This document shows, piece by piece, positions 21,718-42,082 of a stretch of 64,000 nt of DNA. Numbering within the stretch: the stretch's first letter is position 1; each line of letters starts with the position of its first letter. The position numbers and the translations under genes are program-made. The notes under the pieces are model-generated. The model was not told where the DNA came from. It saw only the letters and a list, made by a program, of their open reading frames with translations, and did not search any database. The stretch comes from Caballeronia sp. NK8 (GTDB taxonomy: Bacteria > Pseudomonadota > Gammaproteobacteria > Burkholderiales > Burkholderiaceae): positions 496,001-560,000 of the forward strand of contig NZ_AP024327.1 in the NCBI RefSeq assembly GCF_018408855.1, written 5' to 3'.

Positions 21718-22188
21718 ATGGTCGATGCGTATCGCAGCAAAGGGTTGTCCAGCGCGCTTTCGTATCAGGACCCGAAGGCCGCGTTCCGCTGGCTCGAAGC
21801 CGCATTCGGTTTCGAGCCGATGTTCGTCATCCTCGATGCCGACGGCAATCTCGCGCACTCCGAGATGTCGTATGGCGAATCCGTCGTGATGATCGGCAGC
21901 GAATGGAGCGACGATCACAAGAGCCCACGTTCGGTCGACGGCAAGAACACGCAGTCGGTGCATGTGCAGCTCGCGGAAGACGAGGACATCGACGCGCATT
22001 GCGCGCATGCGCGCGCGGCGGGCGCGTCGATTCTCGCGGAGCCGCAGACGCAGTTCTACGGCGACCGGACCTATCGCGCAAAAGACCCCGAAGGACATAT
22101 CTGGACGTTCGGCGTCACCGTAGAGCGCATGACGCCCGAGCAATGGGACGCGGCGAGCGGACTGACGACGCGCAAACGTCTCGATTGA
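21718..22188 (+). CDS. VOC family protein (PhnB/glyoxalase type)
   Basis: The 156-residue protein starts MVDAYRSKGLSSALSYQDPK and ends with KDPEGHIWTFGVTVERM, a VOC-superfamily pattern of the bleomycin-resistance/PhnB type. It begins 15 bases after the FtsH-like protease gene, behind a GGGAG sequence, so the two are probably co-transcribed. The substrate is unknown, and no functional link to the protease is obvious. Confidence 0.82.
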   Translation: MVDAYRSKGLSSALSYQDPKAAFRWLEAAFGFEPMFVILDADGNLAHSEMSYGESVVMIGSEWSDDHKSPRSVDGKNTQSVHVQLAEDEDIDAHCAHARAAGASILAEPQTQFYGDRTYRAKDPEGHIWTFGVTVERMTPEQWDAASGLTTRKRLD

Positions 22189-22201
22189 GCGGCGACGCGC
22201 C

Positions 22202-22981: not shown

Positions 22982-23015
22982 CGAAAACTCCTTCAGACAA
23001 GGGATGAAATGGAAT

Positions 23016-24170: not shown

Positions 24171-24279
24171 CCTTGCGTCTCCTTGTATACTTCGGCCTCG
24201 CATCCGTGCCGCTTTGCGCATACTAGGGGCGCGCCGGCCCGTGCCGGTTTCCAATTTCTCATGCACATAGCCAACGCTT

Positions 24280-25179
24280 ATGGAACGGGGAACGCTCAAG
24301 ACCGCGCAATTGCAGACGCTCGTCGCCATCGCCGAGCACGGCACACTGATGGCCGCCGCCGATGCGTTGAACGTATCGCAGCCCGCGGTCACGAAGAGCA
24401 TCAAGGAACTCGAAGCGCGCCTCGGCGTGCAACTGCTGGAGCGCAGCGGCGCGGGCGTGCGTCTCACGCGCTACGGCGAAACGCTGTTGCGCCGCGCGCG
24501 CGCCGTGGTCGCGGAAATCGTGAGCGCCGAGCGAGAACTGGACGAGATGAAGTCGGGCATCGAGCGCACCTTGTCGATCGGCGTGTCCTTGCTCGCATCG
24601 TCGATCGCGGTGCCCGACGCGTTGCGCGCGTTTCGCGAGCGGCTGCCCGGTGTCCGCCTCAACGTGCATGAGTGCGTGCCCGCGCAGATCATCGATGGGC
24701 TGCGCGACGGGTCGTTCGATCTGTGCGTCGCGTTCGTCGCCGACAGCGACATCACGGCGGAATATCGCGTCGTGCCGGTCAGTGAAACGGCGCAAGTGCT
24801 GGCCGTCCCGCGCGGCGATCCGCTCGCGAAGGAAAGGCAGCTTGCGCGCATGACGGCCGCGCGCTGGCTCTATTACCACACGCGCGACAGCCTGCCCGCG
24901 TTCTGGCGCGAGCTATGCGGCGGCAGCACCTTGCCGATGCCGTCGCATGTGAACATCTGCACGTCGCAGCGGCTCTATGCGCAGCTGGCGCAGGAAGCGG
25001 GAACGATCAGCGTGTGGCCCGAGCCGCTGCTCGATGAGGAAATTGCGCTCGGCCGCATGGAACGCCTGCACAGCGACGCGCAGACGACACGCCTCACGCT
25101 CGGCCTCATGTATCGCAAGGATCTGGTTTTGAGCGCGAGTCTCGAATACTTCATCGAGTGCATCCGGCGCACGGCCTAG
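24280..25179 (+). CDS. LysR-type regulator, likely for the M20 hydrolase operon
   Basis: The 299-residue LysR protein has an HTH in residues 8-67 (HGTLMAAADALNVSQPAVTK) and a standard effector domain. It is divergent from the M20 amidohydrolase gene with 109 bp between starts, so regulation of that gene is the simplest reading. Its stop is only two bases from the convergent molybdenum-hydroxylase gene end. Confidence 0.88.
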   Translation: MERGTLKTAQLQTLVAIAEHGTLMAAADALNVSQPAVTKSIKELEARLGVQLLERSGAGVRLTRYGETLLRRARAVVAEIVSAERELDEMKSGIERTLSIGVSLLASSIAVPDALRAFRERLPGVRLNVHECVPAQIIDGLRDGSFDLCVAFVADSDITAEYRVVPVSETAQVLAVPRGDPLAKERQLARMTAARWLYYHTRDSLPAFWRELCGGSTLPMPSHVNICTSQRLYAQLAQEAGTISVWPEPLLDEEIALGRMERLHSDAQTTRLTLGLMYRKDLVLSASLEYFIECIRRTA

Positions 25180-25181
25180 CT

Positions 25182-27389: not shown

Positions 27390-27845
27390 TCAGGCCTCCG
27401 CCGCCGCGCGCTTGATGGCACGGCGGATGCGCGCATACGTGCCGCATCGGCAGATGTTGCCGGACATCGCCGCCGTGATGGTTTCATCGCTGACGGCCGG
27501 CTTGCCCTTGAGAAACGCCGCCGCCTGCATCACCTGTCCCGACTGACAATAGCCGCACTGCGGTACGTCCTCGGCGACCCACGCGCGCTGCAAGGGATGC
27601 GTGCCATCCCTGGACAGACCTTCGATCGTCGTGATGCGTCTGCCCGCTACAGCCGCGACGGGCAACAGGCACGCGCGCACCGCATCGCCGTCCAGATGCA
27701 CCGTGCACGCGCCGCAAAAGCCGCCGCCGCAGCCGAATTTGGTGCCCGTCAAACCCAGCGAGTCGCGCAGCACCCACAACAGGGGCATGTCTTCCGGTAC
27801 ATTGTCGAGCGAGTGCCGCGCGTCGTTGACGATGATTTCGATCAT
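27390..27845 (-). CDS. (2Fe-2S)-binding subunit of a molybdenum hydroxylase (IorA-like)
   Basis: The 151-residue protein has both [2Fe-2S] clusters of this family: a plant-ferredoxin type ([11 protein letters not shown] and a fourth Cys in RACLLPV) and a C-terminal helical type (CGYCQSGQ and CRCGTY). It passes electrons from the molybdenum subunit encoded immediately downstream (the two genes abut). It is divergent from a LysR gene starting 106 bp away. Cells would also need a sulfurase-like chaperone for the cofactor, not seen here. Confidence 0.92.
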
Positions 27846-27951
27846 GCGCTGTCTCCTGAATGTCGTTCGTGCGTGCGGTCATTATCGGAAGCCGATACGC
27901 AAGCGCGCCAGCGACGATTTCTTTGATCATCCGTAAGCCCGGCTAACACCC

Positions 27952-28857
27952 ATGTTGAAGCGCTACCCTTCGATCCAGTCGATGCAGGCCTTTCTGCAGG
28001 CGGCACGCGCCGGCAGCTTTTCGAGCGCGGCGCGGCAGTTGTCGCTCACGCACAGCGCGATCAGCCAGCAGATCCGCACGCTCGAAGAGTTCGTCGGCCA
28101 GCCGCTGTTCGTGCGCGAGGGCGCGCGCGTCGTGCTCACCGATGCGGGCGCGCTCTTCGCCAACCAGCTGGGCGACGGCTTCGAGCAGATCGACCGTGCG
28201 TTGTCGTCGGTGAAGGAGCGCGCGGTGAACCAGTCGATCACGCTCGACGTCGATCCCGAACTCGCGCAAAGCTGGCTCGTCGCACGTTTGCCCGCGTTGC
28301 TCGGCGCGTTGACGGGCACTTCGCTGACGATGCTGTCCGCGCCGCGCCACGATCGCAGCGCATTCGAGCGCGTGGATCTCGCGCTGCGTTACGGCTATGG
28401 CGAATGGGATGGTTTCGAGAATGCGCTGATCTGCGGCGACCGTCTGACGGTCATGGGCTCGCCCGCCCTGTTGAACGCGCGCGGGCTCGCGGCACCGCTC
28501 ACGCCGGAACAGGTGCTCGCGCTGCCTTTGCTCGGCTACACCAAGCGCTCATGGATTCCGTGGCTCGCTGCCGCCGGCCTGCCGGAAGTGGAACCGCATG
28601 CGCTCGCTGTCTTCGACAACGCCGCGGGGCTTATCGCGGCCGCGAGCGCGGGCGTGGGCGTCGGCCTTGCGCGCGGCCTGCTCGCCGCCGATGCGCAACG
28701 CGACGGCAGACTGATCGAACTCACGCACGTCGAGATTCCGACGCACTACAACCTCTACGCCGTTTGGCCGCGCGAGAAGTCCGCGCGCGTCGCGCCGCTC
28801 GTCGATGCGATACGCGAACTCGTCGCGCAAACGGTCAACGCGCGCCCCCGGAGTTGA
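27952..28857 (+). CDS. LysR-type regulator, GcvA-like
   Basis: The 301-residue LysR protein has MLKRYPSIQSMQAFLQAARA followed by a standard HTH (SFSSAARQLSLTHSAISQQI), the pattern of the GcvA/AmpR subgroup. It is divergent from the molybdenum hydroxylase genes and is their probable regulator. Its last 23 bases overlap the convergent LysR gene that faces the decarboxylase cluster. Confidence 0.88.
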   Translation: MLKRYPSIQSMQAFLQAARAGSFSSAARQLSLTHSAISQQIRTLEEFVGQPLFVREGARVVLTDAGALFANQLGDGFEQIDRALSSVKERAVNQSITLDVDPELAQSWLVARLPALLGALTGTSLTMLSAPRHDRSAFERVDLALRYGYGEWDGFENALICGDRLTVMGSPALLNARGLAAPLTPEQVLALPLLGYTKRSWIPWLAAAGLPEVEPHALAVFDNAAGLIAAASAGVGVGLARGLLAADAQRDGRLIELTHVEIPTHYNLYAVWPREKSARVAPLVDAIRELVAQTVNARPRS

Positions 28858-29728
28858 CGACATCGCGCACCGTGTCGAGAAACCGCGCCAGCACGGGCGA
28901 CGGCGTTTCCGCGCGATAACGCGCATGCAGCGACACTTCGGGACGCGGCGCCGCGAGCGGCACGAATGCGACGCCGCCGCCCGACAACTGCTGAGCCGAT
29001 GCAGGCAGCAACGCAACGCCAAGCCCTTCGCGCACGAGACAGAGAAGCGTGTGCAGTTCCACGACTTCCTGCTCGATGCGCGGCGTGAATCCCGCTTCGA
29101 CGCAACAGTCGCGCAGAAACCGCGCGAGTTGCGACTGCAGCAAGCCGAACGACAGAAAGCGCTCGGTTTCGAGCTCGCGCAACGCGATCTCCCCGCGTGA
29201 AGCGAACGGATGCGACAACGGCAACGCGACCACCGCCGGTTCGCGCAACACCACTTCGCTGACGATCTCCGGATCTTCGTGCGATACGCGAAAGAAGCAC
29301 ACATCGAGCCGCCGTTCCTTCAACGCCTGAATCTGCGCGGCCGGCGTCATCTCGTGCAGCGTCCACCTCACTTGCGGATGATTGCGCGCGAACACGCCGA
29401 GCGCGCGTGGTATCGGCTCGACCATCGCCGAGCTGATGACGCCGATCTCGAGGCTCCCCACTTCGCCGCGCCCCGCGCAACGCGTGAGATCGATCGCGCG
29501 CTCGAACTGCGCGAAGATCAGCGGCGCCTGTTCCTTCAGTGTTTTCCCTGCCTCGGTCAGTTCGACGCGATGTTGCGAGCGCAGAAAGAGCGCAGTGCCC
29601 ATCTCCTCTTCGAGGATGCGGATCTGCTGACTCAATGGCGGCTGCGAAATGTGCAGGCGCGCGGCTGCGCGGCCGAAATGCAGTTCATCGGCGAGCACCG
29701 CGAAGTACCGCAAAAGCCGCATGTCCAT
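28835..29728 (-). CDS. LysR-type regulator of the decarboxylase cluster
   Basis: The 297-residue LysR protein starts MDMRLLRYFAVLADELHFGR, like the CatR/BenM/TcbR group that responds to aromatic-pathway intermediates. It is divergent from the amidohydrolase-UbiD operon; a 15-bp perfect palindrome with T-N11-A spacing lies 36 bases before its start. Either of two nearby ATGs (29728, 29722) could be used. Co-induction by a muconate-like or carboxylate intermediate is a reasonable guess only. Confidence 0.88.
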   Translation of the reverse strand: MDMRLLRYFAVLADELHFGRAAARLHISQPPLSQQIRILEEEMGTALFLRSQHRVELTEAGKTLKEQAPLIFAQFERAIDLTRCAGRGEVGSLEIGVISSAMVEPIPRALGVFARNHPQVRWTLHEMTPAAQIQALKERRLDVCFFRVSHEDPEIVSEVVLREPAVVALPLSHPFASRGEIALRELETERFLSFGLLQSQLARFLRDCCVEAGFTPRIEQEVVELHTLLCLVREGLGVALLPASAQQLSGGGVAFVPLAAPRPEVSLHARYRAETPSPVLARFLDTVRDVVNSGGAR

Positions 29729-29763
29729 ATCGTCAACGTATCAAGATCGTGATCAAAAAATAT

Positions 29764-29778
29764 TGTACAGAGCGTACA
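29764..29778. promoter_or_regulatory. Putative LysR operator upstream of the amidohydrolase-UbiD operon
   Basis: TGTAC-AGAGC-GTACA is a perfect 5-5-5 inverted repeat and contains the LysR box T-N11-A. It sits in an AT-rich patch 36 bp from the LysR start and about 195 bp from the first amidohydrolase gene. Binding by the adjacent LysR protein is inferred. Confidence 0.6.
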
Positions 29779-29971
29779 TAACTTGTGAGACTGCATCGCA
29801 AGCAGCAGTGCACATCAGTGTGACACTCGATGCCGGCGAGGGGAAGACGCAAGCAAACCGCGTCTTGCAAAAGGCCGCATGGGCAAGCTCGCGAGAGCTT
29901 TCGTTCCATCGATGCGCCTGCCCGCGATCCGGCAACTGGACACGCCAGTTCCCCTCAAGGAGATCGAGACC

Positions 29972-30904
29972 ATGATCATCGACACAAGCTGTTATCCGAC
30001 CAATCTCGTCGACCTCGCCTGGCGCCATGACGGCGAGCCGTTTTCCGGCGAGCGCCTGATCGAGGTGATGGACGGACCGTACATCATCAACGGCAAGCCA
30101 CGCCGTATCGACAAGGCTTTCATTCAGCCGCCGCAAGGCAACACCATCTATACGTGGACCGACGGCGTGCGCTCCGGCCGCGAGTCGATCGACGACTATA
30201 TGGCCTATACCGTCGAGCTCACGCAGAAGTATCCCGACCGTCTGCTCGGCTGCTTCGTCTATAACCCGCGCTGCGGCCCGCAGAACGGCGCCGACGCGAT
30301 CGAGTTCTATGCGAAGGAGCACGGCTTCAGGATGGTGCAGTTGCAGGCCAACATGCATGCGTATCGTCCGGACCGCGCGCTCGACTGGCTGCGCCCGGCG
30401 TTGCGCAAATGCGCGGACCTCGGGCTGATCGTGAAACTGCATACCGGCGATGGTCCCTACAGCATTCCGAGCGAATGGTATCCGCTGATCCGCGAGTTTC
30501 CGTCGGTGCCGTTCATCATGGCGCACTTCGGCGTGCAGACCGGCGGCGTGTATTGCTTCGAGCCGTATCAGATGGCGCTCGATACGCCGAACGTGTATTG
30601 CGAGTCGAGCTGGTGCCTGCAATCGCGCATCGTCGAGTTCGCGAAGGTGTTGCCCACGCACAAGATCCTGTACGGCTCGGACACGCCGCCCAACGAACCG
30701 GGCATGTGGCTGCGCCTGCTCGAAGTGCTCTGTCACGAGCCGCCGCAAGGCCTCAACCTCGACGAAGACACGCTCGAGGATTATCTCGGCAACAACCTCG
30801 CGCGCATGCTCGGCATCGAACCGAGCGCGCCGCCGCGAAGCGTCGAGGAAGCACAGGCCTATCTCGACCAATGCAAAGAATCTGACTACGCAGGAGCGCG
30901 CTGA
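29972..30904 (+). CDS. Amidohydrolase_2 family protein lacking the HxH metal motif
   Basis: The 310-residue protein belongs to the amidohydrolase_2 (ACMSD/gamma-resorcylate decarboxylase-like) family and is a close paralog of the next gene product. It starts MIIDTSCYPTNLVD where the paralog has MIIDTHLHPTNLVD, so both histidines of the beta-1 HxH metal site (positions 6 and 8) are Ser and Tyr. Other likely ligands remain: His in VKLHTGDGPY, His in MAHFGVQTGG and Asp in YGSDTPPNEPG. It may be a non-catalytic or altered partner of the paralog. The ATG at 29972 has AAGGAG upstream; its stop overlaps the next ATG. Confidence 0.88.
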   Translation: MIIDTSCYPTNLVDLAWRHDGEPFSGERLIEVMDGPYIINGKPRRIDKAFIQPPQGNTIYTWTDGVRSGRESIDDYMAYTVELTQKYPDRLLGCFVYNPRCGPQNGADAIEFYAKEHGFRMVQLQANMHAYRPDRALDWLRPALRKCADLGLIVKLHTGDGPYSIPSEWYPLIREFPSVPFIMAHFGVQTGGVYCFEPYQMALDTPNVYCESSWCLQSRIVEFAKVLPTHKILYGSDTPPNEPGMWLRLLEVLCHEPPQGLNLDEDTLEDYLGNNLARMLGIEPSAPPRSVEEAQAYLDQCKESDYAGAR

Positions 30905-31836
30905 TGATCATCGATACCCATCTGCATCCGACCAATCTCGTCGACGAAGCCTGGCGGCATACGGGCGAGCCCTTCACCGGCGAACGCCTGCTGAAGATGA
31001 TGGACGGCCCGTACATCATCAACGGCAAGCCGCGCCGTATCGACATGGGCTTCATTCAGCCGCCGCCGGGCAACACCGGCTATCGCGACGGCAACCGGCG
31101 CGGGCGTGAAGGCATTCGCGATTACATGTCGTATATCGCCGAGCTTACGCAGAAGTATCCCGACCGCTTCATCGGCAACTTCACGTATAACCCGCGCTGG
31201 GGTCCGGAGAACGGCGCGGCCGAACTCGAATTCCACGTGAAGGAATACGGCTTCAAGATGCTCAAGCTGCACGCGAACATGCATGGTTATCGGCCGGACC
31301 GCGCGCTCGACTGGCTGCGCCCCGCGATGAAGAAATGCGCGGAGCTGGGCGTCGTCGTGCTGATCCATACCGGCGATGGTCCGTACACGATTCCGACGCA
31401 GTTCTATCCGATCATCCGCGAATTCCCGATGGTGAACTTCATCATCGGTCACTTCGGGATTCAGACGGGCGGCAATTACTCGTTCGAAGCCTTCTGGATG
31501 GCGATGGATACGCCCAACGTCTATTGCGAATCGGGCTGGTGCTATCAGTCGCGCATCGTCGAATTCGCGCGTCAGTTGCCGCGCAACAAGATCGTGTTCG
31601 GCACCGATTCGCCGCCGAACGAGCCGGGCATGTGGCTGCGCGAACTTGAAATGCTGTGCGGTCCCGCGCCGCAGGGCATGGATCTCGACGAGGACGGCCT
31701 CGAAGACTACATGGGCAACAACATCGCACGGCTGGTCGGCATCGAACCGACGAAACCGCCGAAAGACCTTGCCGAAGCGGAGAAGCGATTGAAGGCGACC
31801 TACGTGAAGAGCGACGAAGTCGCGCAGACAGCCTGA
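30904..31836 (+). CDS. Amidohydrolase_2 family protein (putative metal-dependent decarboxylase or hydrolase)
   Basis: The 310-residue protein keeps the full metal site: HxH in DTHLHPTN (His6, His8), His in LIHTGDGPY, His in IGHFGIQTGG and Asp in FGTDSPPNEPG. Family members decarboxylate aromatic or muconate-type acids (ACMSD, LigW, gamma-resorcylate decarboxylase) or hydrolyse lactones. It is the same length as, and very similar to, the preceding protein, so a tandem duplication is clear. The gene starts within the preceding stop codon (TGATG), implying coupled translation and perhaps a mixed complex. Confidence 0.9.
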   Translation: MIIDTHLHPTNLVDEAWRHTGEPFTGERLLKMMDGPYIINGKPRRIDMGFIQPPPGNTGYRDGNRRGREGIRDYMSYIAELTQKYPDRFIGNFTYNPRWGPENGAAELEFHVKEYGFKMLKLHANMHGYRPDRALDWLRPAMKKCAELGVVVLIHTGDGPYTIPTQFYPIIREFPMVNFIIGHFGIQTGGNYSFEAFWMAMDTPNVYCESGWCYQSRIVEFARQLPRNKIVFGTDSPPNEPGMWLRELEMLCGPAPQGMDLDEDGLEDYMGNNIARLVGIEPTKPPKDLAEAEKRLKATYVKSDEVAQTA

Positions 31837-31844
31837 CATCACGC

Positions 31845-31868
31845 GGGGCGCGGTTGCGCACGCGCCCC
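31845..31868 (+). terminator. Hairpin inside the operon, before ubiD
   Basis: An 8-bp perfect stem (GGGGCGCG / CGCGCCCC) with an 8-base loop, followed by TTCTT, lies between the second amidohydrolase stop and the UbiD-family start. It may reduce read-through or protect transcript ends, so that the upstream pair is made in larger amount than the rest of the operon. Confidence 0.45.
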
Positions 31869-31892
31869 TTCTTCCTTCCGACGGAGCTCACG

Positions 31893-33278
31893 ATGGCCGA
31901 TAACCTCTTTCGCGCCACGCAGGACTTTCATTGCTTCGCGCTTGCTTATCGCGAGCGTTATCCGGACGACGTGCTGACGCTCACGCAGCCGCTGTCCGCC
32001 GATCAGGATGTCACGGCGGTCGTCGCGGCGCTCGCATCACGCGGACAGCATCCGATGCTCGTGTGCGAGAACGTCGACGGCATCGGCACGCCTCTGGCGA
32101 CCAACTTCTTCGCCTCGCGTGAGCGCATCGGCCGCTTGTTCGACGTCGATGCGCGCGGTCTCTTCGACGCCTGGCAACAGCGCGCGAATGCGCCGATCGC
32201 GCCTGTGCATGTGGCAAGCGGCCCGGTGCTCGATGAAGTCATCGAGGCCGACGCCGTCGATCTCGCGCAACTGCCGATGATCCGCCACTTCGCCACCGAT
32301 CGCGGCCCGTACATCACGAACGCCGTGATCGTCGCGGAAGATCCGGTGACGGGCATCGCCAATCTCAGCTATCACCGCTCGATGCGCCACGCGAGGAACG
32401 CGCTCGCGACCAGCCTGCATTCGCGCGGCCACTTGTGGCGCATGTTGCAGACGGCGCAGGCGCGCGGCGACACGCTGAAGGTCGCGATGGTCATCGGCGC
32501 ACATCCGTTGTTCATGCTCGCTGCCGCATCGCGCGTGCCTTTCGGAGCCGATGAACGCGCAATCGCCGGGGGACTCTTCGGCGCACCGCTGGAACTCGTG
32601 CGTACGCCGCGTTACGGCATCGGCGTGCCCGCCGCCGCGGAGTTCGTGCTCGAAGGCACGATCGATCCCGAAGCGCGCGCCGAGGAAGGCCCGTTCGGCG
32701 AATTCACGGGCTATTCGTCGGACCGTTCGACCAACAACGTGTTGCGCGTCGACACGATGATGCGCCGTCGCGATGCGTGGCTCGTCGATGTCGTCGGCGG
32801 TCCGTATGCCGAGCATCTCACGCTCGCTCGCCTGCCGCGCGAAGCGGAGATGAGCGAGAAGCTGAAGGCGCGCTTTCCTTCCGTCACGGCGCTGCACTAT
32901 CCGAACTCCGGCACGCACTTTCATTGCTATGTCGCGCTGAAACAGACACGCGATGGCGAAGCGCGTCAGATCATGCTCGCGCTGCTCGGCTGGGACCCGT
33001 ATCTCAAGCACGTCGTGGCCGTCGATAGCGATATCGACATCACGGACGATTCACAGGTGCTGTGGGCGATCGCCGCGCATGCCCAGCCGCATGAGGACGT
33101 GTTCATCGTCGGCGGCTTGCCGGGCAGTCCGCTCGATCCGTCTTCGTCCGTGGATGGCACGACCTCGCGCATGGGCATCGACGCGACGCGCGGTTCGCAT
33201 TTCGACGGCATACGCGCGCGCATCGGCGAGGATGCGATGCGTCGCGCGGAAGAGATTCTCCAAGGAGCCACGCGATGA
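31893..33278 (+). CDS. UbiD family (prenylated-FMN dependent) decarboxylase
   Basis: The 461-residue protein carries the UbiD hallmark [10 protein letters not shown]; Glu265 and Glu270 correspond to the catalytic pair E277/E282 of fungal Fdc1, and an Arg-containing loop ([13 protein letters not shown]) precedes them. These enzymes use prenylated FMN to decarboxylate, or in reverse carboxylate, aromatic, heteroaromatic or alpha,beta-unsaturated acids. The UbiX gene that makes the cofactor follows with a four-base overlap, which argues for a dedicated catabolic enzyme and not the ubiquinone pathway one. GGAG precedes the ATG at 31893; the open frame further upstream is not coding. Confidence 0.93.
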
Positions 33279-33847
33279 GCACGCGACGCATCGCGGTGGG
33301 CATCAGCGGCGCGTCTGGCTTCGTGTACGGCGTGCGGCTGCTGGAATGGCTGCGCGAACTCGATATCGAAACGCACCTGACCATCTCGCGCAGTGCGCTT
33401 CTCACGATGTCGCACGAAACCGACTACAAGCTCGCCGATGTAAGCGCGCTCGCAAGCCACACGTATCGATGCGACGACGTGGCCGCCGCCATTTCGAGCG
33501 GCTCGTTCCGCACGCTCGGGATGATCGTCGCGCCGTGCTCGATGAAGACGCTCGCCGAAATCGCCAGCGGACTCTCATCGAGCCTCATCTCGCGCGCCGC
33601 CGACGTCACGCTCAAGGAGCGCCGCCCGCTCGTGCTGCTCGCACGCGAAACACCGTACACGCTGGCGCATCTGCGCAACATGGTCGCCGTCACGGAGATG
33701 GGCGGCATCATCTCGCCGCCGGTGCCCGCGTTCTACGCGCGCCCCGCTTCACTCGACCAGATGATCGATCACACGCTCGGGCGCGTGCTCGATCTGTTCG
33801 GCCTCGAATGCAACGGAGTGCGCCGCTGGAAGGAACACGAAGCCTGA
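33275..33847 (+). CDS. UbiX family flavin prenyltransferase
   Basis: The 190-residue protein has the UbiX flavoprotein fold: [20 protein letters not shown] at the start, [15 protein letters not shown] in the middle and [20 protein letters not shown] after it. UbiX attaches a dimethylallyl group to FMN to make the cofactor of UbiD enzymes. It overlaps the UbiD-like gene by four bases, so cofactor supply is coupled to its user. Length is normal for the family. Confidence 0.94.
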
Positions 33848-33876
33848 CTGACTCGAAGACTCAAAGGAGACATGCA

Positions 33877-34929
33877 ATGACTCACATCCACACCACGCAT
33901 AACGCATTCGACAAGATTCCGGTCACGGTGCTGACCGGCTTTCTCGGCGCGGGCAAGACCACGCTGCTCAACTACATCCTGCGCGAAAAGCACGGTCACA
34001 AGATCGCGGTGATCGAGAACGAGTTCGGCGAAGTCGGCATCGACGGCGGACTCGTGCTCGAATCGACCGAAGAAATCTATGAAATGACCAACGGCTGCGT
34101 GTGCTGCGTCGGCGCGGTGCGCGAGGACCTCGTGCGTATCGTGAGGATGCTCGTCGAGCGGCCCGAACGGCTGGATCACATCATCGTCGAGACGAGCGGG
34201 CTCGCCGACCCCTATCCGGTTGCGCAGACCTTCTTCATCGACGATCCGATCGCGCAGCGCGTGACGCTCGACGCCGTCGTGACGATGGTCGATGCGAAGC
34301 ATATCGCCGCGCATCTCGACGATCTCGTTCTCGATGGCCGCGACAACCAGGCCGTCGATCAGATCGTGTGCGCGGACCGCATCGTGATCAACAAGGTGGA
34401 CCTGGTGACGCCGCAGGACATCGCGACGCTCACGGAGCGACTTCGCGGGCTCAATGCGACGGCCGAGATCGTCGAGTCGAGCTACGCGCAGATCGATCTG
34501 CGCGGCATTCTGGGCGTGGGCGCGAATGAGTTCGCGCAACAACTCGTCGAAGCGGACGATCACCATGACCACCATGACCACGATCATCATGACGAAGACC
34601 ATGACGATCATCATCACGACGACACCGTTACATCGGTAGGCATCGAAGTCGACGCGGATGTCGATCTCGACGCGCTGCAGGCGTGGCTTGCCGAACTGCG
34701 CGCATCGGACGCGACGAATCTGTTCCGCATGAAGGGCATCTTCGCGGTGAAGGGCCAGCCGTATCGCTACGTGCTGCAAGGCGTGCACGACATCGTCGAA
34801 TTGCGCGCGGCGCAGGCATGGGGCAGCGAGCCGCGCTCGTCGCGCATGGTGTTCATCGGACGCGAGCTCGACCGCGCCGCGCTGACCGAGCGCTTCCATG
34901 CCTGTCTCGCCGTGCCACTCATGGCCTGA
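33877..34929 (+). CDS. CobW/COG0523 family GTPase with histidine-rich metal-binding segment
   Basis: The 350-residue protein has Walker [10 protein letters not shown], the metal-binding CxCC motif in [15 protein letters not shown] for guanine specificity, and a C-terminal CobW domain. Residues about 226-250 are almost only His and Asp ([20 protein letters not shown]), a metal-storage stretch. COG0523 proteins hand metals (Zn, Co and others) to client enzymes. Inside this operon the obvious clients are the metal-dependent amidohydrolases. The ATG at 33877 is preceded by AAGGAG; a two-codon ATG at 33872 is out of frame. Confidence 0.92.
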
Positions 34930-34968
34930 CGAACCAGGCCGCCGATAAAGATAATCAGGAGACACGTG

Positions 34969-36309
34969 ATGAACACCGACCAACACCCCGTCGATCGCGT
35001 CCTGCCCAAACGGCAGATGATCACGCTCGGCCTGCAGCACATGCTCGTCGCTTATATCGGCGCGATTGCCGTGCCGTTGATCGTCGCATCCGCATTGAAG
35101 ATGTCGCCCGCCGACACCACCGTGCTCATCAGCACGGCGCTCTTCTGCTCGGGCATCTCGACGGTGCTGCAGACCGTCGGGTTCTGGAAGTTCGGCGTGC
35201 GCCTGCCGATCCTGCAAGGTGTCGCGTTCAGCAGCGTGGGCCCGGTCATCGCGATCGGCATGAGTCCTGGCGTCGGCTTCGCGGGCGTGTGCGGCGCGGT
35301 GATCGGCGCGGGCGTGTTCACGATGTTCGCCGCGCCGCTCGTCGGACGCTTGCGCCGCTTCTTTCCACCTGTCGTGACGGGCTGCATCGTCACCGTGATC
35401 GGCCTGCAGCTCTTTCCGGTCGCGTACCAGTGGGCGGGCGGCGGCGAGCATGCGCAGCAGCACTTCGGCGCGCTGCCGTATCTGAGCGTCGCGTTGTTCG
35501 TCGCGCTGGTGATCCTTGCGATCAACCGCTTCGCCAATGCGTTCCTGCGCAATCTATCGGTGCTGATCGGCCTGATCGGGGGCAGTGCCCTGGCCTGCGT
35601 GCTCGGCATGGGCGACTTCCGCAATGTCGCCGACGCGCCGTGGTTCACGATGCCGCTGCCGTTTCACTTCGGCATGCCGGTGTTTTCCGTGGTGCCCGTA
35701 CTGACCATGATCGTCGTGATGGTCGTGCAGATGGTCGAGTCGATGGGTCTCTTCGTCGCGATCGGCGATATCGTCGACAAGAACATCAGCGAAGAGGACG
35801 CGGTGCGCGGCATGCGTGCAAACGGACTCGCGAGCGCGATTGCGGGGATGTTCGCTGCGTTCCCGTTCATCGCGTTCATGGAGAACGTGGGCCTCGTCAT
35901 TCTGACCGGCGTGCGCAGCCGATGGGTCGTCGCGGTGAGCGGCGTGCTCATGTGCGTGGTCGCGCTGGTGCCTAAGTTCGGCGCGGTGGTGGCCTCGACG
36001 CCTGCGGCCGCGCTCGGCGGCGCGGGCATCGCGATGTTCGGCGTGGTGGTCGCCGCGGGCGTGCAGACGCTTGCGAAAGTGGACTTCGAGCGCAATCGCT
36101 ACAACGTGCTGATCGTCGGCTTCACCATTGCGACCGCGCTGATTCCCGTGATGGCGCCACAGGTCTTCAGGCAGATGCCCGAGTGGACGCAGCCCTTCGT
36201 GCACAGCGGCGTGGTGCTCGCGTGTCTCGTATCGGTCGTGCTGAACGCCGTGCTCAACGGCGCGCACGAAGATGACGTCGTGCCTGCGCACAACATGGTG
36301 CGCGAGTAA
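34969..36309 (+). CDS. NCS2 family nucleobase:cation symporter
   Basis: The 446-residue membrane protein has about 14 helices and the NCS2/NAT signature region FMENVGLVILTGVRSR with Glu in the position that is Gln, Glu or Pro across the family. It also keeps QMVESMGLFVAIGDI, whose Glu is expected to line the substrate site. NCS2 proteins import uracil, xanthine, urate or similar ring compounds with H+ or Na+. In this operon the cargo is likely an N-heterocycle, perhaps carboxylated. A GTG one codon earlier (34966) could also start it; AGGAG precedes both. Confidence 0.93.
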   Translation: MNTDQHPVDRVLPKRQMITLGLQHMLVAYIGAIAVPLIVASALKMSPADTTVLISTALFCSGISTVLQTVGFWKFGVRLPILQGVAFSSVGPVIAIGMSPGVGFAGVCGAVIGAGVFTMFAAPLVGRLRRFFPPVVTGCIVTVIGLQLFPVAYQWAGGGEHAQQHFGALPYLSVALFVALVILAINRFANAFLRNLSVLIGLIGGSALACVLGMGDFRNVADAPWFTMPLPFHFGMPVFSVVPVLTMIVVMVVQMVESMGLFVAIGDIVDKNISEEDAVRGMRANGLASAIAGMFAAFPFIAFMENVGLVILTGVRSRWVVAVSGVLMCVVALVPKFGAVVASTPAAALGGAGIAMFGVVVAAGVQTLAKVDFERNRYNVLIVGFTIATALIPVMAPQVFRQMPEWTQPFVHSGVVLACLVSVVLNAVLNGAHEDDVVPAHNMVRE

Positions 36310-36312
36310 AAC

Positions 36313-37719
36313 ATGATGACAGGACGAACCTTCATGAATACGCAAAACCAAGCATTGCTAATCAAACGACCGGTTGCCGTAATGAGCGGATTGCGCGGCG
36401 ATGCCGCGCGTCTCGGCCAGGTCGACATTCGCATCCGTCACGGCATCATCGAAGCCATTGCGCCGGATCTGGAAGCACGCGACGGCGAACGCGTCATCGA
36501 TGCGCGTTCCTGTGTCGTCTATCCGGGCTGGGTGAACACGCATCATCATCTGTTCCAGAATCTGCTGAAAGCCGTGCCTTCGGGCATCAACGCAGATTTG
36601 CAGGAATGGCTCGCAGCGGTCCCTTATCCGCGCCTCGCACGCTTCACGCCGGACCTCGCGCGTGTCGCCGCACGCCTTGGCATGGCCGAACTGCTGTTGT
36701 CGGGCGTGACGACGTGCGCGGATCATCACTATCTCTATCACGCGGATGGCACCACGGAGACAGGCGACCTGCTGTTCGACGAAGCGGCGTCGTTCGGCCT
36801 GCGCTTCGTGCTCTGTCGCGGCGGCGCGTTGCAGGCGGCGGGCGATCATCCCGGCTTCTCGAAGGTCGCGCTGAAACCCGAGACGCTCGATCAGATGCTT
36901 GCCGATATCGAACGCCTGAAAACGCGCTATCACGATGCACGCGCGGCATCGATGCGCCGCGTCGTGGTCGCACCCACCACGCCGACCTTCTCGCTGCCGC
37001 CCGCGCTGTTGCCCGAAATCGCGCGGGCGGCGCGCGGCATGGGTCTGCGCATGCACACGCATCTTTCGGAGACGCGGCGCTATGTCGACTTTTGCCGCGA
37101 ACGCTTCGACAAGCTGCCGGTCGAGTTCGTCGCCGAGCACGAATGGCTCGGCCCCGATGTATGGTTCGCCCATCTCGTGCATCTCGAAGCGAGCGAAATC
37201 GCGATGCTCGCCGAAACTGGCAGCGGTTGCGCGCACTGCCCCGTCAGCAACGCGCGGCTCGGCAGCGGCATCGCCCCCGCGCCGCAGATGGCCGCGGCAG
37301 GCGTGCCCATGTCGCTCGCGGTGGATGGCGTGGCATCGAACGAGTCGGGCAGCATGATCAACGAGGCGCACTTCGCGTGGCTCGTGCATCGCGCGGCGCA
37401 GGGCGTCTCGGCGACGACCGTCGAGGAGACCATTCATTGGGGCAGCGCGGGCGGCGCGGGCGTGCTCGGCCTCGATGCAGTCGGCACACTCGAAGTCGGC
37501 AAGGCCGCGGACCTCGTGCTGTACGACATCGATGATCCGCGCTTCTACGGCTACCACGATCTCGCGGTGGCGCCGGTGACGTCGGGCGAGCCTGCGCGCG
37601 TGCGCTACAACGTCGTGAACGGCCGGGTAGTCGTCGATGACGGTGTGATTCCCGGACTCGATCTCGACGCGCTGCGCCACGAAGCCGCCGAGGGCGTGAA
37701 GATTCTACTGGCCGATTAG
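36313..37719 (+). CDS. Amidohydrolase, 8-oxoguanine deaminase/AtzA-TrzN-like
   Basis: The 468-residue enzyme belongs to the cytosine/guanine/triazine deaminase branch of the amidohydrolases. Metal ligands are visible: HxH at His77-His79 (VNTHHHLFQN), His in MRMHTHLSETRR context (about 240-250), His in WFAHLVHLE and Asp in LAVDGVASNES. The segment NARLGSGIAPAPQMAAAGVP is like 8-oxoguanine deaminase. It would hydrolytically remove an amino or other group from an N-heterocycle imported by the NCS2 carrier three bases upstream. Starts at 36313, 36316 or 36334 are all possible; no strong ribosome-binding site decides. Confidence 0.88.
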   Translation: MMTGRTFMNTQNQALLIKRPVAVMSGLRGDAARLGQVDIRIRHGIIEAIAPDLEARDGERVIDARSCVVYPGWVNTHHHLFQNLLKAVPSGINADLQEWLAAVPYPRLARFTPDLARVAARLGMAELLLSGVTTCADHHYLYHADGTTETGDLLFDEAASFGLRFVLCRGGALQAAGDHPGFSKVALKPETLDQMLADIERLKTRYHDARAASMRRVVVAPTTPTFSLPPALLPEIARAARGMGLRMHTHLSETRRYVDFCRERFDKLPVEFVAEHEWLGPDVWFAHLVHLEASEIAMLAETGSGCAHCPVSNARLGSGIAPAPQMAAAGVPMSLAVDGVASNESGSMINEAHFAWLVHRAAQGVSATTVEETIHWGSAGGAGVLGLDAVGTLEVGKAADLVLYDIDDPRFYGYHDLAVAPVTSGEPARVRYNVVNGRVVVDDGVIPGLDLDALRHEAAEGVKILLAD

Positions 37720-37731
37720 CGAGGCATCGCG

Positions 37732-38520
37732 ATGCAAACGAAACGCATAAGACTCGGAATCCTGACGCCATCGTCCAACACCGCGCTCGAACCGCTTACC
37801 TGCGCGATGCTGAGCGCACTGCCGCACGTGAGCGCGCACTTCGCGCGCTTCACCGTGACCGAGATCAGCTTGCGCGATGCGGCGCTCGGCCAGTTCGACG
37901 TCCGCCGCATTCTCGAAGCCGCGCGCCAGCTCGCCGATGCGCGCGTGGACGTGATCGGCTGGAGCGGCACGTCGGCGGGCTGGCTCGGCTTCGAGCGCGA
38001 CGAGGCGCTATGCCGTCAGTTGACGGAAGCGACCGGCATTCCCGCGACCACATCCGTGCTCGCGTTGAACGAGATCCTCGCGCAGACGGGCGTGCGGCGC
38101 CTCGGCATCGTTTCGCCCTATAGCGACGATGTGCAGACGCGCATCATCCGCAATTACGAAAGACTCGGCATCGAATGCGTGGCGGAACGGCATCTGGGTC
38201 TGAGCGAAAACTTCAGCTTCGCCGAGGTACCTGACGACGTTCTCGCCGAAATGATGCGCGAAGCCGCATTCGCGCGGCCCGATGCGGTGACGACGTTCTG
38301 CACGAACCTGCATGCCGCGCATCTGGCGCGACCATTCGAACGCGAGACGGACATTCCCGCTTACGACACGGTGGCCACTGTCGTGTGGAAAGCGTTGCGC
38401 ATGCTCGACGTGGACACGTCGCCGCTATCGAGCTGGGGAACGATGTTCGATGTCACGCCACCTCGCCGCTCTTCTTTTGCGACCGGTATTCCGTCGGCGA
38501 CATCAGAAACTGCTTTCTGA
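37732..38520 (+). CDS. Asp/Glu racemase superfamily protein, maleate isomerase/arylmalonate decarboxylase-like
   Basis: The 262-residue protein starts with the maleate-isomerase-like segment RLGILTPSSNTALEPLT. Racemase-fold enzymes usually use two cysteines. Here the second is present (Cys190 in TTFCTNLHA) but the first position reads IGWSGTSAG (about 75-83) with no Cys, a pattern known for arylmalonate decarboxylase. It could isomerise or decarboxylate a C4 or malonate-type product at the end of the pathway. The last roughly 23 residues, after LSSWGTMF, are encoded opposite the end of the convergent AraC gene (68-bp overlap) and look like a read-through extension. Confidence 0.8.
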   Translation: MQTKRIRLGILTPSSNTALEPLTCAMLSALPHVSAHFARFTVTEISLRDAALGQFDVRRILEAARQLADARVDVIGWSGTSAGWLGFERDEALCRQLTEATGIPATTSVLALNEILAQTGVRRLGIVSPYSDDVQTRIIRNYERLGIECVAERHLGLSENFSFAEVPDDVLAEMMREAAFARPDAVTTFCTNLHAAHLARPFERETDIPAYDTVATVVWKALRMLDVDTSPLSSWGTMFDVTPPRRSSFATGIPSATSETAF

Positions 38521-39442
38521 ACACCTTCGAAAACCGTTCGCCGTTGGTGAGTCCGGTTCTGCGCGCGATCTTGTCTATCGGCAAATCGCTTTTGGCGAGC
38601 AGCTCGCAACTGAGATCGAGGCGTGCGCGCAGAAGATATTGCGAAGGCGTCAAACCCATTTCGCGCTTGAAGAGCCGCAGGAAGTTGCGTTCGCTCATCG
38701 CGACGGTACGCGCCGCGTCGCCGACGGAGATCGCACGTCCGCAGTTACGTTCGAGCCAGCGCGCCGATTCCTGCGCTTTCTCCGCGAGCGTGGTCGTTCC
38801 GATCGTGCTGAGCATGATCGGCAGATGCTGGTCGTTGCACGAGGCGAGGCGATCGGCGACCGATGTCGCGACGTCATAACCCAGATCGCGTTTGACGAGC
38901 GCAAGCGAATTGATCAGCGCATCGCCGCGTTCCGTCGACGGTCCGCTCTTCGACGCACCGGGATTCCATGCGCCGCGCTCCACCGAAGCCCAGGCGCGCC
39001 GCGACACGCCCGCTGCCGAGAGCAGCACGTCGCCGTTGCCGAGTGAGTTGACCACGCGGCTTTGCGAGCACGCGATCCTCAATACCTCGATGAGCCCCTC
39101 GTCCGTGGCCGCACGGGCGACACCCGTTCCACCCGCGATATACAGGGCATCGAAGCCCTGAAACCGCTGACCGCCGAGCCGCTCGGTCCACACGCAAACG
39201 GACGACGAACAGGCGATCGCGCCACCGCGCGCCGAGACGAGGCGAACGCTATATCTCACGCTCTTGCTCGGACCGGATGACTGCAATTCGTTGGCGATAT
39301 GAAGCGCCTCGGCAAGCGTGCCTGCGCCCAGCAGCGAGAATCCGTCGTACAACAGAATTCCTATGAGGCTTGTCACTCTCTCTTCCGATGAGTGATAAAG
39401 GCTGCTGATCTCTGCATCGCCGAAGGCTGTCGCGTGGGACAT
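38453..39442 (-). CDS. GlxA-type AraC-family regulator, first of two related copies
   Basis: The 329-residue protein has an N-terminal DJ-1/PfpI-like domain (LIGILLYDGFSLLGAGTLAE, YIAGGTGVARAATDEG) and a C-terminal AraC domain (SERNFLRLFKREMGLTPSQY, KIARRTGLTNGERFSKVFRK). It closes the heterocycle cluster, convergent with the racemase-like gene and overlapping it by 68 bp. Its C-terminal half is strikingly similar to the regulator cut by the right edge of the window (63342 onward), so it could belong with the exopolysaccharide locus that starts next to it instead. Confidence 0.88.
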   Translation of the reverse strand: MSHATAFGDAEISSLYHSSEERVTSLIGILLYDGFSLLGAGTLAEALHIANELQSSGPSKSVRYSVRLVSARGGAIACSSSVCVWTERLGGQRFQGFDALYIAGGTGVARAATDEGLIEVLRIACSQSRVVNSLGNGDVLLSAAGVSRRAWASVERGAWNPGASKSGPSTERGDALINSLALVKRDLGYDVATSVADRLASCNDQHLPIMLSTIGTTTLAEKAQESARWLERNCGRAISVGDAARTVAMSERNFLRLFKREMGLTPSQYLLRARLDLSCELLAKSDLPIDKIARRTGLTNGERFSKVFRKQFLMSPTEYRSQKKSGEVA

Positions 39443-39901
39443 GGCGTTATCTCCCTATGTTTTCGGTTGCAGATTCACGCGGTAAATTCCGCACGATTCC
39501 GGCAGCGTAGTGTTCTATTCGGTACATCCTTTCCGCAGTGGCGGGCAAAAGCATGGTTTTGGCCGAGAACGGCGCGTCGTCCGACCGGCGCTTACGGCCC
39601 GTTGACATTCCTTACCTTCGTTTCGATCATCCCCATTTCGTTTGGATTGCCAAATTATTTAAACGAGCAATGGCGCGCAAACGTTGTCGCGGTATGCACC
39701 ATCGCGTGGAATAAGGTTATCGATTCGATGATCGCGCAGGCGAGACCCGCGTTTGAATGTCATCGGCCATCCGGCCAACATCTTGCCGAAATCCGTCACG
39801 CGAAAGGATGAAAACGGCACGACGACTACTCTTTTTTGTGAGCGTGCACATCTTTGGGGCTGTGCTTTCAATTCGAACGATACTCTGCCGGAGTCGCTCA
39901 C
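39443..39901. other. 459-bp gap between AraC-type and methyltransferase genes
   Basis: This divergent gap is clearly richer in A and T than the genes around it and holds promoters for both neighbours. It includes an AT patch near 39650-39662 (CAAATTATTTAAAC) and a TTTTTT run near 39832. No convincing open frame, hairpin or repeat was seen. Confidence 0.5.
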
Positions 39902-40669
39902 ATGAGCTTCAGCAAGCGATACTCGCAATACTATGATCTTTTCTATCACGAGAAGAACTACAAGGCGGAGGCAGCGTTCGTCACTGACCTCCTCGGCCGG
40001 CACGGAATCGTCGGCGGCAATCTGATGGATCTCGGTTGCGGAACCGGCCGGCATGCAGCCGAATTCGCAACGACAGGATTCAGCGTCGCCGGCGTGGACA
40101 TGAGCGCGGATATGCTCGCCCGTGCCGATGCACGCCGCATCACGCTGCCGGGCATGGTCGCGAAGCGGCTGAAGTTTCAGCAAGGCGACGCGCGCACCGT
40201 CAGGACCGAAGAGCTTTACGACGCCGTGGTCTCGCTGTTTCATGTCGCGAGCTATCAGACGACCAACGCCGACTTCATGGCGATGTGCCACACCGCGGCC
40301 ACGCATCTGCCGCGCTCGGGCCTCTTTCTCTTCGATTGCTGGTACGGCCCGGCCGTGCTCGCCGATCCGCCGAAAGTGCGCGTCAAACGTGCGTCGAGCG
40401 AAGATACCGCCGTGATACGCATCGCCGAGCCCATGATGCGTCCGCACGATAACACCGTCGCAGTGAATTACACGATCCTCATGACGGACTGGCAAACGCA
40501 ATGCGTCGAGACGGTGCTCGAGACACACGTCATGCGCTACATGTTCAAGCCGGAAGTGGAACTGATGCTGGACCTGAGCGGTTTTGAAGTGCTGGACAGC
40601 GTGCGATGGATGGGCGGCGAACTCAGCGCCGAGGATCTGTCAGCGACGTTCGTCGCGCGCAAGAGATGA
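39902..40669 (+). CDS. Class I SAM-dependent methyltransferase
   Basis: The 255-residue protein has the SAM-binding motif I LMDLGCGTGRHAAEFATTG and motif II region VAGVDMSADMLARA. It starts MSFSKRYSQYYDLFYHEKNY, a pattern common among methyltransferases in polysaccharide or secondary-metabolite loci. Its acceptor is unknown; being next to the exopolysaccharide genes, sugar or nucleotide-sugar methylation is possible. It ends at a strong hairpin shared with the convergent initiating transferase gene. Confidence 0.85.
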   Translation: MSFSKRYSQYYDLFYHEKNYKAEAAFVTDLLGRHGIVGGNLMDLGCGTGRHAAEFATTGFSVAGVDMSADMLARADARRITLPGMVAKRLKFQQGDARTVRTEELYDAVVSLFHVASYQTTNADFMAMCHTAATHLPRSGLFLFDCWYGPAVLADPPKVRVKRASSEDTAVIRIAEPMMRPHDNTVAVNYTILMTDWQTQCVETVLETHVMRYMFKPEVELMLDLSGFEVLDSVRWMGGELSAEDLSATFVARKR

Positions 40670-40675
40670 AATCAT

Positions 40676-40698
40676 GCATCGCGCCTTTCGCGCGATGC
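40676..40698. terminator. Bidirectional hairpin between methyltransferase and EPS initiating transferase
   Basis: A perfect 9-bp stem (GCATCGCGC / GCGCGATGC) with a CTTTC loop lies between two convergent stops. No long T-run follows on either side. Confidence 0.6.
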
Positions 40699-40705
40699 GT
40701 GTGAG

Positions 40706-42082
40706 TCAATAAGCGTTGCTATTGCGCATGCCCTTGAAGATTGTCGCCATGATGATCCGCATGTCGAGCGCGAACGACCAGTTCCCCAGATAGTACAAAT
40801 CGTGCGCAACGCGCGCTTCCATCTTTTCTATCCGGTCCGTTTCACCGCGAAAGCCGTTGACCTGCGCCCAGCCCGTAATTCCCGGTTTGACCCGATAACG
40901 ATGGATATAGCCCGACACTACCTTCCGATACAGATCGTCGTGTTCGAGCGCGTGCGGACGCGGCCCCACGACGGACATGTCGCCGCGCAGGACATTGAAA
41001 AACTGCGGAAGTTCGTCGAGGCTCGTGCGCCGCAGGAACGCGCCCACACGCGTCACGCGCGGGTCGTCGCGCGTGGCCTGTCTCAGCACGCCGGCCTCTT
41101 CGATATGCATACGCATCGAACGGAACTTGTAGATGGTGAATTCGTGCCCGTCGGCCCCTTTGCGGCGTTGCCTGAAAAACACCGGTCCGGGCGAACTCAG
41201 CTTGACCGCGAATGCGATGCAGATGAGAAGCGGTGCGACCGCGGTCAGCGCTGCGAGCGCGAAAAGGCGGTCGAACACATCTTTCTGCAGAAGCGCCCTT
41301 TGCGAAAGCGGAGAAGCCACGAGATTGATCGCGGCCACCCCGAGCAGGTCTGTCACGCCGCTTTCGAAGAGCGCAAGACTGCGCACATCGGGAATGAAAC
41401 GCACGTTGACGAGATCTTCACGAAACTCGTTCACGAAACGCAGGATGGTTCGATCCTGCGATAGCGGCAATGCGAGCCACACTTCGTGCACATGGTGCTC
41501 GCGCACGTGCCTGACGAATGCGTCGAAATCATCGAAGACCGGTACGCGTGACGTGATCGGTACATCGGGCGACGCGTTGTAGACGGCGATCGTCCGAAAA
41601 CCTGATTGATTCGCGCGCTCGATCCTGCGCATGATCGATTCACAGTGCTCGCCGCATCCCACCACGGCCACCTGATGAAAGTTCATGCCGGCCAGACGCA
41701 TGCGCGCGAGCACCGCATGCGTGAGCAGGCGTCCCACGATCATCCAGGCGCCCGACATCGCGGTCCAGTAGGCGAACCAGAGGCGCGAGACATCGTCGAG
41801 CCGATGCAGCGAGAACATCAGCACGAGCACACAGGCCTGCACGACCAGCCACGCCAGCGATACGTGGCTCGCCAGCACCACCTTGCTGCGTCCGCGCCAT
41901 GACTCGTATACGCCGAAGCCCGGGAACAGCACGAGTGCAAAGGCCGCGGCAATGGCGACGAACGGCATGTAATAGCCCGGCTCGGCGACGTTGTCGAACC
42001 TGATCCGCGACGCGATCGTCGCGCCGCCCACCACCATGGCGATATCGAAAAACCGCGCCAGCAATCCCTGAATATCGCGCAT
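40706..42082 (-). CDS. Undecaprenyl-phosphate glucose phosphotransferase (EPS initiating transferase)
   Basis: The 458-residue protein is a WcaJ/BceB-type polyprenyl-phosphate hexose-1-phosphate transferase. It has four or five N-terminal membrane helices, a central CoA-binding-like domain ([20 protein letters not shown]) and a C-terminal bacterial sugar transferase domain starting at [13 protein letters not shown], with [20 protein letters not shown] and [11 protein letters not shown]. It loads the first sugar phosphate (usually glucose) on the lipid carrier at the inner membrane, starting repeat-unit synthesis. It lies directly downstream of manC. Confidence 0.92.

Follow-up and report, generated by a model that had tools for sequence, protein, structure and literature searches.

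A co-inherited set of amidohydrolase, UbiD decarboxylase and NCS2 carrier genes in Caballeronia sp. NK8, tentatively assigned to breakdown of a nucleobase-like ring

What compound does a bacterium take apart with two paralogous amidohydrolases, a decarboxylase of the UbiD family, an NCS2 carrier and a probable deaminase encoded side by side? The question is raised by eight genes at positions 29972 to 38520 of a 64,000-nucleotide stretch of Caballeronia sp. NK8 DNA (contig NZ_AP024327.1, positions 496,001 to 560,000 of the forward strand), referred to here in its full length as the window. The genome carrying it is 9.2 Mb long, and the closest matches in scans with the second amidohydrolase are to Caballeronia. 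A preliminary description of this DNA, made from its sequence alone, proposed a pathway for an N-heterocyclic carboxylate. We find that the eight genes form one real, co-inherited unit, with a core of the two amidohydrolases (AH1 and AH2) and UbiD that is constant while the hydroxylase and deaminase beside it are swapped for distant versions between lineages. Tentatively, and as a possibility short of a probability, we read the unit as a catabolic funnel, probably controlled by LysR-type regulators, for a nucleobase-like fused heterocycle, most probably a pteridine, that ends in the purine pathway. The genes concerned, beginning with the eight of the operon, are as follows.

29972–30904, + strand: AH1, an Amidohydro_2 protein without the HxH metal motif, SCY standing there (PF04909 from residue 59)
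30904–31836, + strand: AH2, an Amidohydro_2 protein with HLH and further metal-site residues intact (PF04909 from residue 3)
31893–33278, + strand: UbiD-type decarboxylase, of the kind that uses prenylated flavin mononucleotide (prFMN) (TIGR00148, 287.9 bits, cut-off 244.85)
33275–33847, + strand: UbiX flavin prenyltransferase (TIGR00421 and NF004685 above cut-off)
33877–34929, + strand: CobW-type GTPase metallochaperone containing a His-rich segment (PF02492 and PF07683, CobW and CobW_C)
34966–36309, + strand: NCS2 carrier of the xanthine-permease subfamily, its signature motif beginning E-N (TIGR03173, 475.9 bits, cut-off 414.15)
36313–37719, + strand: AtzA-like amidohydrolase of the PRK12393 family, a probable deaminase (NF009059, 782.3 bits, cut-off 543)
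37732–38520, + strand: single-cysteine arylmalonate-decarboxylase-like protein, accessory (PF17645, Amdase)
25182–27389, − strand: large molybdopterin subunit (IorB-type) of a molybdenum (Mo) hydroxylase, with the N-terminal sequence RRRFMKQSS, which resembles a twin-arginine translocation (Tat) signal (Pfam MoCoBD_1 and MoCoBD_2)
27390–27845, − strand: small [2Fe-2S] subunit (IorA-type) of the Mo hydroxylase (Pfam Fer2 and Fer2_2)
27952–28857, + strand: LysR-type regulator lysR2, read from the translation
28835–29728, − strand: LysR-type regulator lysR3, oriented away from the operon, read from the translation

All eight operon genes are intact and lie on the + strand, as judged from translations of the open reading frames (ORFs) and from Pfam and NCBIfam, with start codons refined to 29972 for AH1, 31893 for UbiD and 33877 for CobW. 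The gaps between them, in order from AH1 to the last gene, are −1, 56, −4, 29, 36, 3 and 12 bases, so that the arrangement on one strand with overlaps or short gaps given in the preliminary description is borne out; gaps this short (−4 to 56 bases) make co-transcription of the eight genes likely, as a prediction from gap lengths. That description overlooked the neighbouring hydroxylase, the regulators and the loss of the metal motif in AH1. An Rfam scan of window positions 22000–41000 gave no match.

When one genome per species was scanned with AH2, 227 stretches were found to encode a relative, and the best 80 of the 227 loci were analysed; the set was chosen by AH2, and AH2 identities in it are hence biased upwards, and several loci end at contig ends. 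A lack of co-conservation was the outcome that would have told against the grouping, and the search for gene order across genomes shows the opposite, with AH1, AH2 and UbiD kept together in 80/80 loci of beta-, gamma- and alphaproteobacteria. UbiX is present in 78/80, CobW in 77/80 and NCS2 in 77/80, and all six genes are found in 75/80. The AtzA-like gene occurs in 51/80 and the last gene in 28/80, while homologues of lysR2 and lysR3 accompany 44/80 and 59/80 respectively. The large subunit of the hydroxylase, of either the window type or a distant type, recurs in 62/80 loci (the small subunit of either type in 65/80), and the Mo hydroxylase is counted as a member of the system. ORF clustering of the loci revealed no recurrent neighbour recognizable as a purine- or folate-pathway gene, most clustered ORFs remaining unidentified.

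The carriers belong to Caballeronia, Paraburkholderia, Burkholderia, Cupriavidus, Ralstonia and Crenobacter, and further to Pseudomonas, Marinobacterium, Brucella/Ochrobactrum, Paracoccus and Rhodoplanes. Separate protein searches listed the best 120 of 281 and the best 120 of 855 matches. Among plasmids, the unit is also found in Sinorhizobium, Ensifer, Shinella and Ponticoccus; that search gave 98 records with any match, 91 of them covering at least 80 % of the query, and 60 of the 98 were listed. The cluster is present on pSymB of Sinorhizobium meliloti 1021, a laboratory organism. Despite this wide spread the distribution is patchy: AH1 was matched in 38/200 genomes of a family sample, each of the 38 having exactly two matches, one per paralogue, and in 4/398 genomes of a phylum sample, and AH2 in 1/385 genomes of an alphaproteobacterial sample, the one being the genome on which that sample was centred. 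One Rhodoplanes stretch (L074, 5908–16897) has AH1-AH2 with a UbiD of 43 % identity about 1.7 kb upstream, and neither NCS2 nor UbiX was found in it.

The loss of the metal motif in AH1 is observed throughout, SCY standing at the HxH position in 80/80 loci and the first motif residue being Ser or Ala in each of the 13 AH1 sequences of one alignment (A3). AH2 keeps HLH in 80/80 loci, and among 31 aligned rows H155 and H183 are invariant and D235 is present in at least 90 %. Judged from these sequences, the pair looks like one old duplication whose copies have been retained jointly. A structure-model search places the predicted fold of AH2 in the group of ACMSD, 5-carboxyvanillate decarboxylase, LigJ and isoorotate decarboxylase, with which it also shares the metal motif; it differs from that group in that the fold matches are only 11–24 % identical and that a paralogous partner without HxH is always encoded beside it. 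We note that a subgroup of AH1 proteins has ACH at the motif (nine rows), and that one sequence (P0051) additionally has Ser for a later Asp, which would represent further erosion of the AH1 metal site.

In another explanation a pyrimidine carboxylate such as isoorotate or 5-carboxycytosine would be converted to uracil by deamination and decarboxylation, with AH2 acting like isoorotate decarboxylase. For a single carboxylate, however, a pair of decarboxylases plus a Mo hydroxylase would be an odd provision, and dihydropyrimidinase, which was found in 20/25 cluster genomes at an E-value of 1e-100, was not found in the other 5/25 at that threshold (the Rut route was not searched for). We consider this explanation improbable.

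The UbiD protein has the N-terminal, Rift-related and C-terminal UbiD domains (PF20695, PF01977 and PF20696). Catalysis in this family involves an Arg and a Glu motif close to prFMN, and the HR and EGPFGE motifs of the window protein align with those of 6h6v, which at 226 bits (residues 43–441) is its best solved match together with 7p9q; we take 6h6v to be HmfF, a furan-acid enzyme, and 7p9q to be an indole-acid enzyme. Binding of prFMN and decarboxylation are predicted for the window protein, which UbiX adjoins. The relationship to HmfF is distant even with the motifs aligned, and the setting of HmfF is furan-acid catabolism, with no AH1/AH2, NCS2 or deaminase alongside. Five further distant UbiD matches, with 28–36 % identity, lie elsewhere in the genome (C5, C3 and C1), two of them being parts of one frame.

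The exchange of neighbours around the core is observed in five alphaproteobacterial plasmid stretches (Sinorhizobium, Paracoccus, Ensifer, Ponticoccus and Shinella). These keep AH1-AH2-UbiD-UbiX and a CobW-type GTPase, and their hydroxylase is of the three-subunit xanthine dehydrogenase type, with XdhC annotated in 3/5 and NCS2 in 4/5, Ponticoccus being the exception. Each encodes another amidohydrolase, and those of Sinorhizobium, Paracoccus and Ensifer, which were scanned, are CodA-like; they fall below the cut-offs of all families displayed and are not AtzA-like. In two of the plasmid stretches an annotated aldolase is also encoded, next to a BMP-type ABC transporter and a further amidohydrolase (L091:3791–6093, Ensifer; L093:3765–6097, Shinella); the aldolase, scanned in Ensifer only, is above the cut-off of PRK06486 and might process a side chain. 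A Paracoccus stretch (L090) has hppD and a gene for a Rieske-type protein about 11 kb from AH1, both of which we judge to be unrelated to the unit.

A different arrangement is seen in two Caballeronia genomes (L036 with L097, and L043 with L099), where a paralogous core that has NCS2, hydroxylase and LysR genes to itself accompanies a window-type front end that lacks a core. Each of these genomes encodes just one UbiD belonging to this subfamily (64 % identity), all their other UbiDs reaching at most 37 %. The window-type front end of L036 comprises NCS2 (95 %), the AtzA-like protein (93 %), the hydroxylase (90–92 %), two LysR proteins (95–96 %) and the last protein (88 %), and its second front end NCS2 (49 %), hydroxylase (45–62 %) and LysR (40 %), with one AtzA-like gene overall. 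The corresponding values in L043 are 94 % for NCS2, 92 % for the AtzA-like protein and 93 % for LysR on the window-type side, where no window-type hydroxylase was found in the stretches covered, and 51 % for NCS2, 45–72 % for the hydroxylase and 39 % for LysR in the second; two front ends that both include a hydroxylase therefore occur only in L036. Read most simply, two substrates converge on a single intermediate, on which AH1/AH2/UbiD act, and since front ends are exchanged and one core may be flanked by two of them, the core probably handles a common intermediate.

This bears on where the carboxylate comes from. The preliminary description had the imported substrate itself as the acid; the unit fits a route with a carboxylate somewhere on it, and because the core persists under exchange of hydroxylase and deaminase and lies between two front ends in two genomes, the carboxylate may arise within the route and need not be on the imported ring. 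The opposite case would use the same genes in a different order: pterin- or lumazine-6-carboxylate from folate breakdown would be oxidized, taken up and deaminated, its 6-carboxylate would be removed by UbiD, and ring opening by AH1/AH2 would follow. A soil bacterium that degrades folate is described as deaminating both folate and pteroate, with lumazine-6-carboxylate as a proposed intermediate that was not detected (PMC9513972). Further enzymes would be expected after ring opening, however, and none is present among the scanned proteins of the unit; one core beside two front ends also fits a later common intermediate better, and we regard the imported 6-carboxylate as unlikely.

Returning to a carboxylate formed on the way through a pteridine funnel, we infer every reaction, the sequence of steps, and the identity of both substrate (a pteridine) and product (xanthine). 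The Mo hydroxylase, which in its window version is probably exported, would put oxo groups beside ring nitrogens, and its product would be imported by NCS2; the AtzA-like enzyme would then swap the 2-amino group for oxo. The AH1/AH2 pair would open or rearrange the ring, with the metal held by AH2, residues or shape contributed by AH1, and metallation aided by the CobW protein. UbiD, with prFMN from UbiX, would remove the carboxylate, and the product, probably xanthine, would join the ordinary purine pathway. The proteins of the unit that were scanned with Pfam include no ring-cleaving oxygenase and no enzyme set for a leftover acid, and the end product should therefore be a common metabolite.

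A more specific and more doubtful version is that AH1/AH2 act as an obligate pair converting tetraoxypteridine to xanthine-8-carboxylate (the orphan activity EC 5.5.1.3), UbiD then yielding xanthine, with varied front ends feeding in pterins and lumazines. The two compounds are isomers (C6H4N4O4), and an enzyme for this conversion was reportedly described in the 1960s without a gene; this tetrahydroxypteridine cycloisomerase would perform the step assigned here to AH1/AH2, and we know of no sequence for it. A text search of open-licence literature for the name of the enzyme found nothing. Pterin itself is a 2-amino-4-oxo ring, and xanthine-type hydroxylases oxidize pterins and lumazines. Soil bacteria are described as having pterin deaminases; those of Variovorax sp. 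F1 and Agrobacterium (Arad3529) use folate and pteroate, which are 2-amino-4-oxopteridines like the class of substrate proposed here (PMC9513972). A pterin deaminase of the Arad3529 type is not in the window, however, and the alphaproteobacterial loci have, by profile scan, a putative deaminase that is CodA-like.

The proteins of the front end can be examined for their fit to this scheme. Among 64 hydroxylase matches in the 80 loci, 49 have at least 44 % identity and all 49 carry a Tat-like RRxF near the N-terminus; the 15 distant ones (24–27 % identity) lack the motif, a loose pattern match in L074 being counted here. Because of the Tat-like signal in 49/49 window-type hydroxylases, oxidation by this type probably takes place outside the cytoplasm, before uptake by NCS2. 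Mo hydroxylases of the xanthine oxidase family often oxidize carbons adjoining ring nitrogens. Membership of the NCS2 carrier in the xanthine-permease subfamily would count for a nucleobase-like substrate. Xanthine carriers of NCS2 have a signature motif that starts with Q, and the window carrier has E-N while exceeding the TIGR03173 cut-off; among the 77 carriers of the loci the motif is E-N in 49, Q-N in 21 and unparsed in 7, of which 4 were read by eye as E-N. We considered this E/Q difference as a substrate marker, for which it is suggestive, but it is broken by S. meliloti, which has Q-N with a CodA-like deaminase nearby.

The label of 8-oxoguanine deaminase or AtzA-like protein holds in its second part only, the match to 8-oxoguanine deaminase (PRK08203) reaching 416.5 bits and thus staying below the cut-off of 532. 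The nearest solved structure is 2paj, for which we know of no reported activity. Alignments with 2paj and with the 8-oxoguanine and isocytosine deaminases (3hpa, 7ww2; Vcz, URA3) are near full-length and share NTHHH, HTHL and VDG, but APCSP of the 8-oxoguanine enzymes is APTTP in the AtzA-like protein, which is closest to 2paj. Its relatives act on guanine, 8-oxoguanine and isocytosine (PMC6186785).

The last protein had been described as like maleate isomerase or arylmalonate decarboxylase. It belongs to the Amdase family and has the one-cysteine pattern, and at 75.1 bits it stays below the arylmalonate decarboxylase cut-off (NF052327, 225). Maleate isomerases use two active-site cysteines and the arylmalonate decarboxylase pattern has one; the first being absent here, identity as a maleate isomerase is rejected. 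Its homologues read WSGTS at the first site in 23/28 and FCTN at the second in 25/28, the rest being unparsed.

The same protein enters into a different explanation, in which a pyridine- or pyrazine-type carboxylate is first hydroxylated; UbiD and AH2 would then remove carboxylate, and the ring would be opened to give a maleamate-like acid for which the last gene supplies a cis-trans isomerase. The protein does match maleate isomerases (4fq7, E-value 9.4e-12), and N-heteroaromatics are substrates of two-subunit Mo hydroxylases of this kind. But the first isomerase cysteine is missing and the gene occurs in so few of the loci, the scanned proteins of the unit include neither a dioxygenase nor a monooxygenase that cleaves rings, and we know of no NCS2 carrier for acids of this type; the explanation is accordingly one to which we give little credence. 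The range of N-heterocyclic acids named in the preliminary description is narrowed in the same way: the genes are co-inherited and catabolic-looking, fit a nucleobase-like ring and place a carboxylate on the route, while pyridine or triazine substrates are less likely because no ring-cleaving oxygenase was found among the scanned proteins.

Does the purine pathway accompany the unit, as a xanthine product would lead one to look for? Hydroxyisourate hydrolase and xanthine dehydrogenase are above cut-off in 25/25 cluster genomes (25/25 each for TIGR02962 and TIGR02963), and a sample of the phylum, to which the genome of the window itself belongs, has TIGR02962 in 39/150 and TIGR02963 in 33/150. 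Uricase TIGR03383 was found in 0/9 cluster genomes, which says little since bacteria often use other urate oxidases.

Several observations weigh against the pteridine funnel. The co-occurrence with purine genes, compatible with a xanthine product, is weak evidence because genome size and kinship act as confounders, and the family control removes most of its force: xanthine dehydrogenase is present in 140/200 family genomes, comprising 38/38 with the cluster and 102/162 without, and of 20 listed family genomes without the enzyme 17 are at most 3.8 Mb, the smallest cluster carrier being 4.4 Mb. The predicted AH2 fold has putative lactonases and a hydratase as well as decarboxylases among its neighbours, so that the model favours hydrolysis no more than decarboxylation. 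Ring hydroxylation is an assignment by family, and the nearest solved chain to the large subunit is that of an aldehyde dehydrogenase (8gy3, 224.6 bits). The carrier motif fails to track the deaminase type in S. meliloti, and NCS2 was not found in the L046 and L074 stretches and is not annotated in that of Ponticoccus. No pteridine-specific gene was recognized near the core. All of the gene content would fit equally well if the same funnel served another fused or substituted ring, such as a purine analogue, a flavin fragment or a xenobiotic, and gave a product other than xanthine; the spread over soil, marine and plant-associated species argues instead for a common natural substrate, and we think this alternative rather unlikely.

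In kind, then, the earlier interpretation is partly supported, as an uncharacterized-looking pathway for a nucleobase-like ring with prFMN decarboxylation, its details unproven. Its statement that no characterized pathway has this exact gene set agrees with a search of open-licence literature, which found no description of the set (most subscription papers lay outside its scope). To this we add that AH1 is always kept as a partner although it lacks the metal motif, that the hydroxylase and regulators belong to the unit, that front-end enzymes are exchanged around a fixed core, and the pteridine hypothesis. If the last is true, genes would be assigned to the routes by which bacteria degrade pterins and fragments of folate, for which, to our knowledge, sequences are known only for the first steps; prFMN chemistry would reach purine-type acids, and a strictly kept enzyme pair with one partner lacking the metal motif would be explained. 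Even with another ring as substrate, the core is a well-bounded module of wide distribution, and its common intermediate can be tested for.

The surroundings of the unit in the window are of other kinds. Next to the hydroxylase, at 23016–25179, are an M20-type peptidase gene (PF01546) and a LysR gene that are common to only 2/80 loci. AraC regulators with a DJ-1/PfpI-like domain are encoded at 38453–39442, overlapping the end of the operon (3/80 loci), and at 619–1659. An FtsH-like protein with AAA and M41 peptidase domains is encoded at 19784–21703 amid unrelated genes. By eye, the segment 40706–51602 carries genes resembling those for exopolysaccharide synthesis, among them a sugar transferase, an enzyme of the mannose-1-phosphate guanylyltransferase type, a DegT-type aminotransferase and nucleotide-sugar enzymes.

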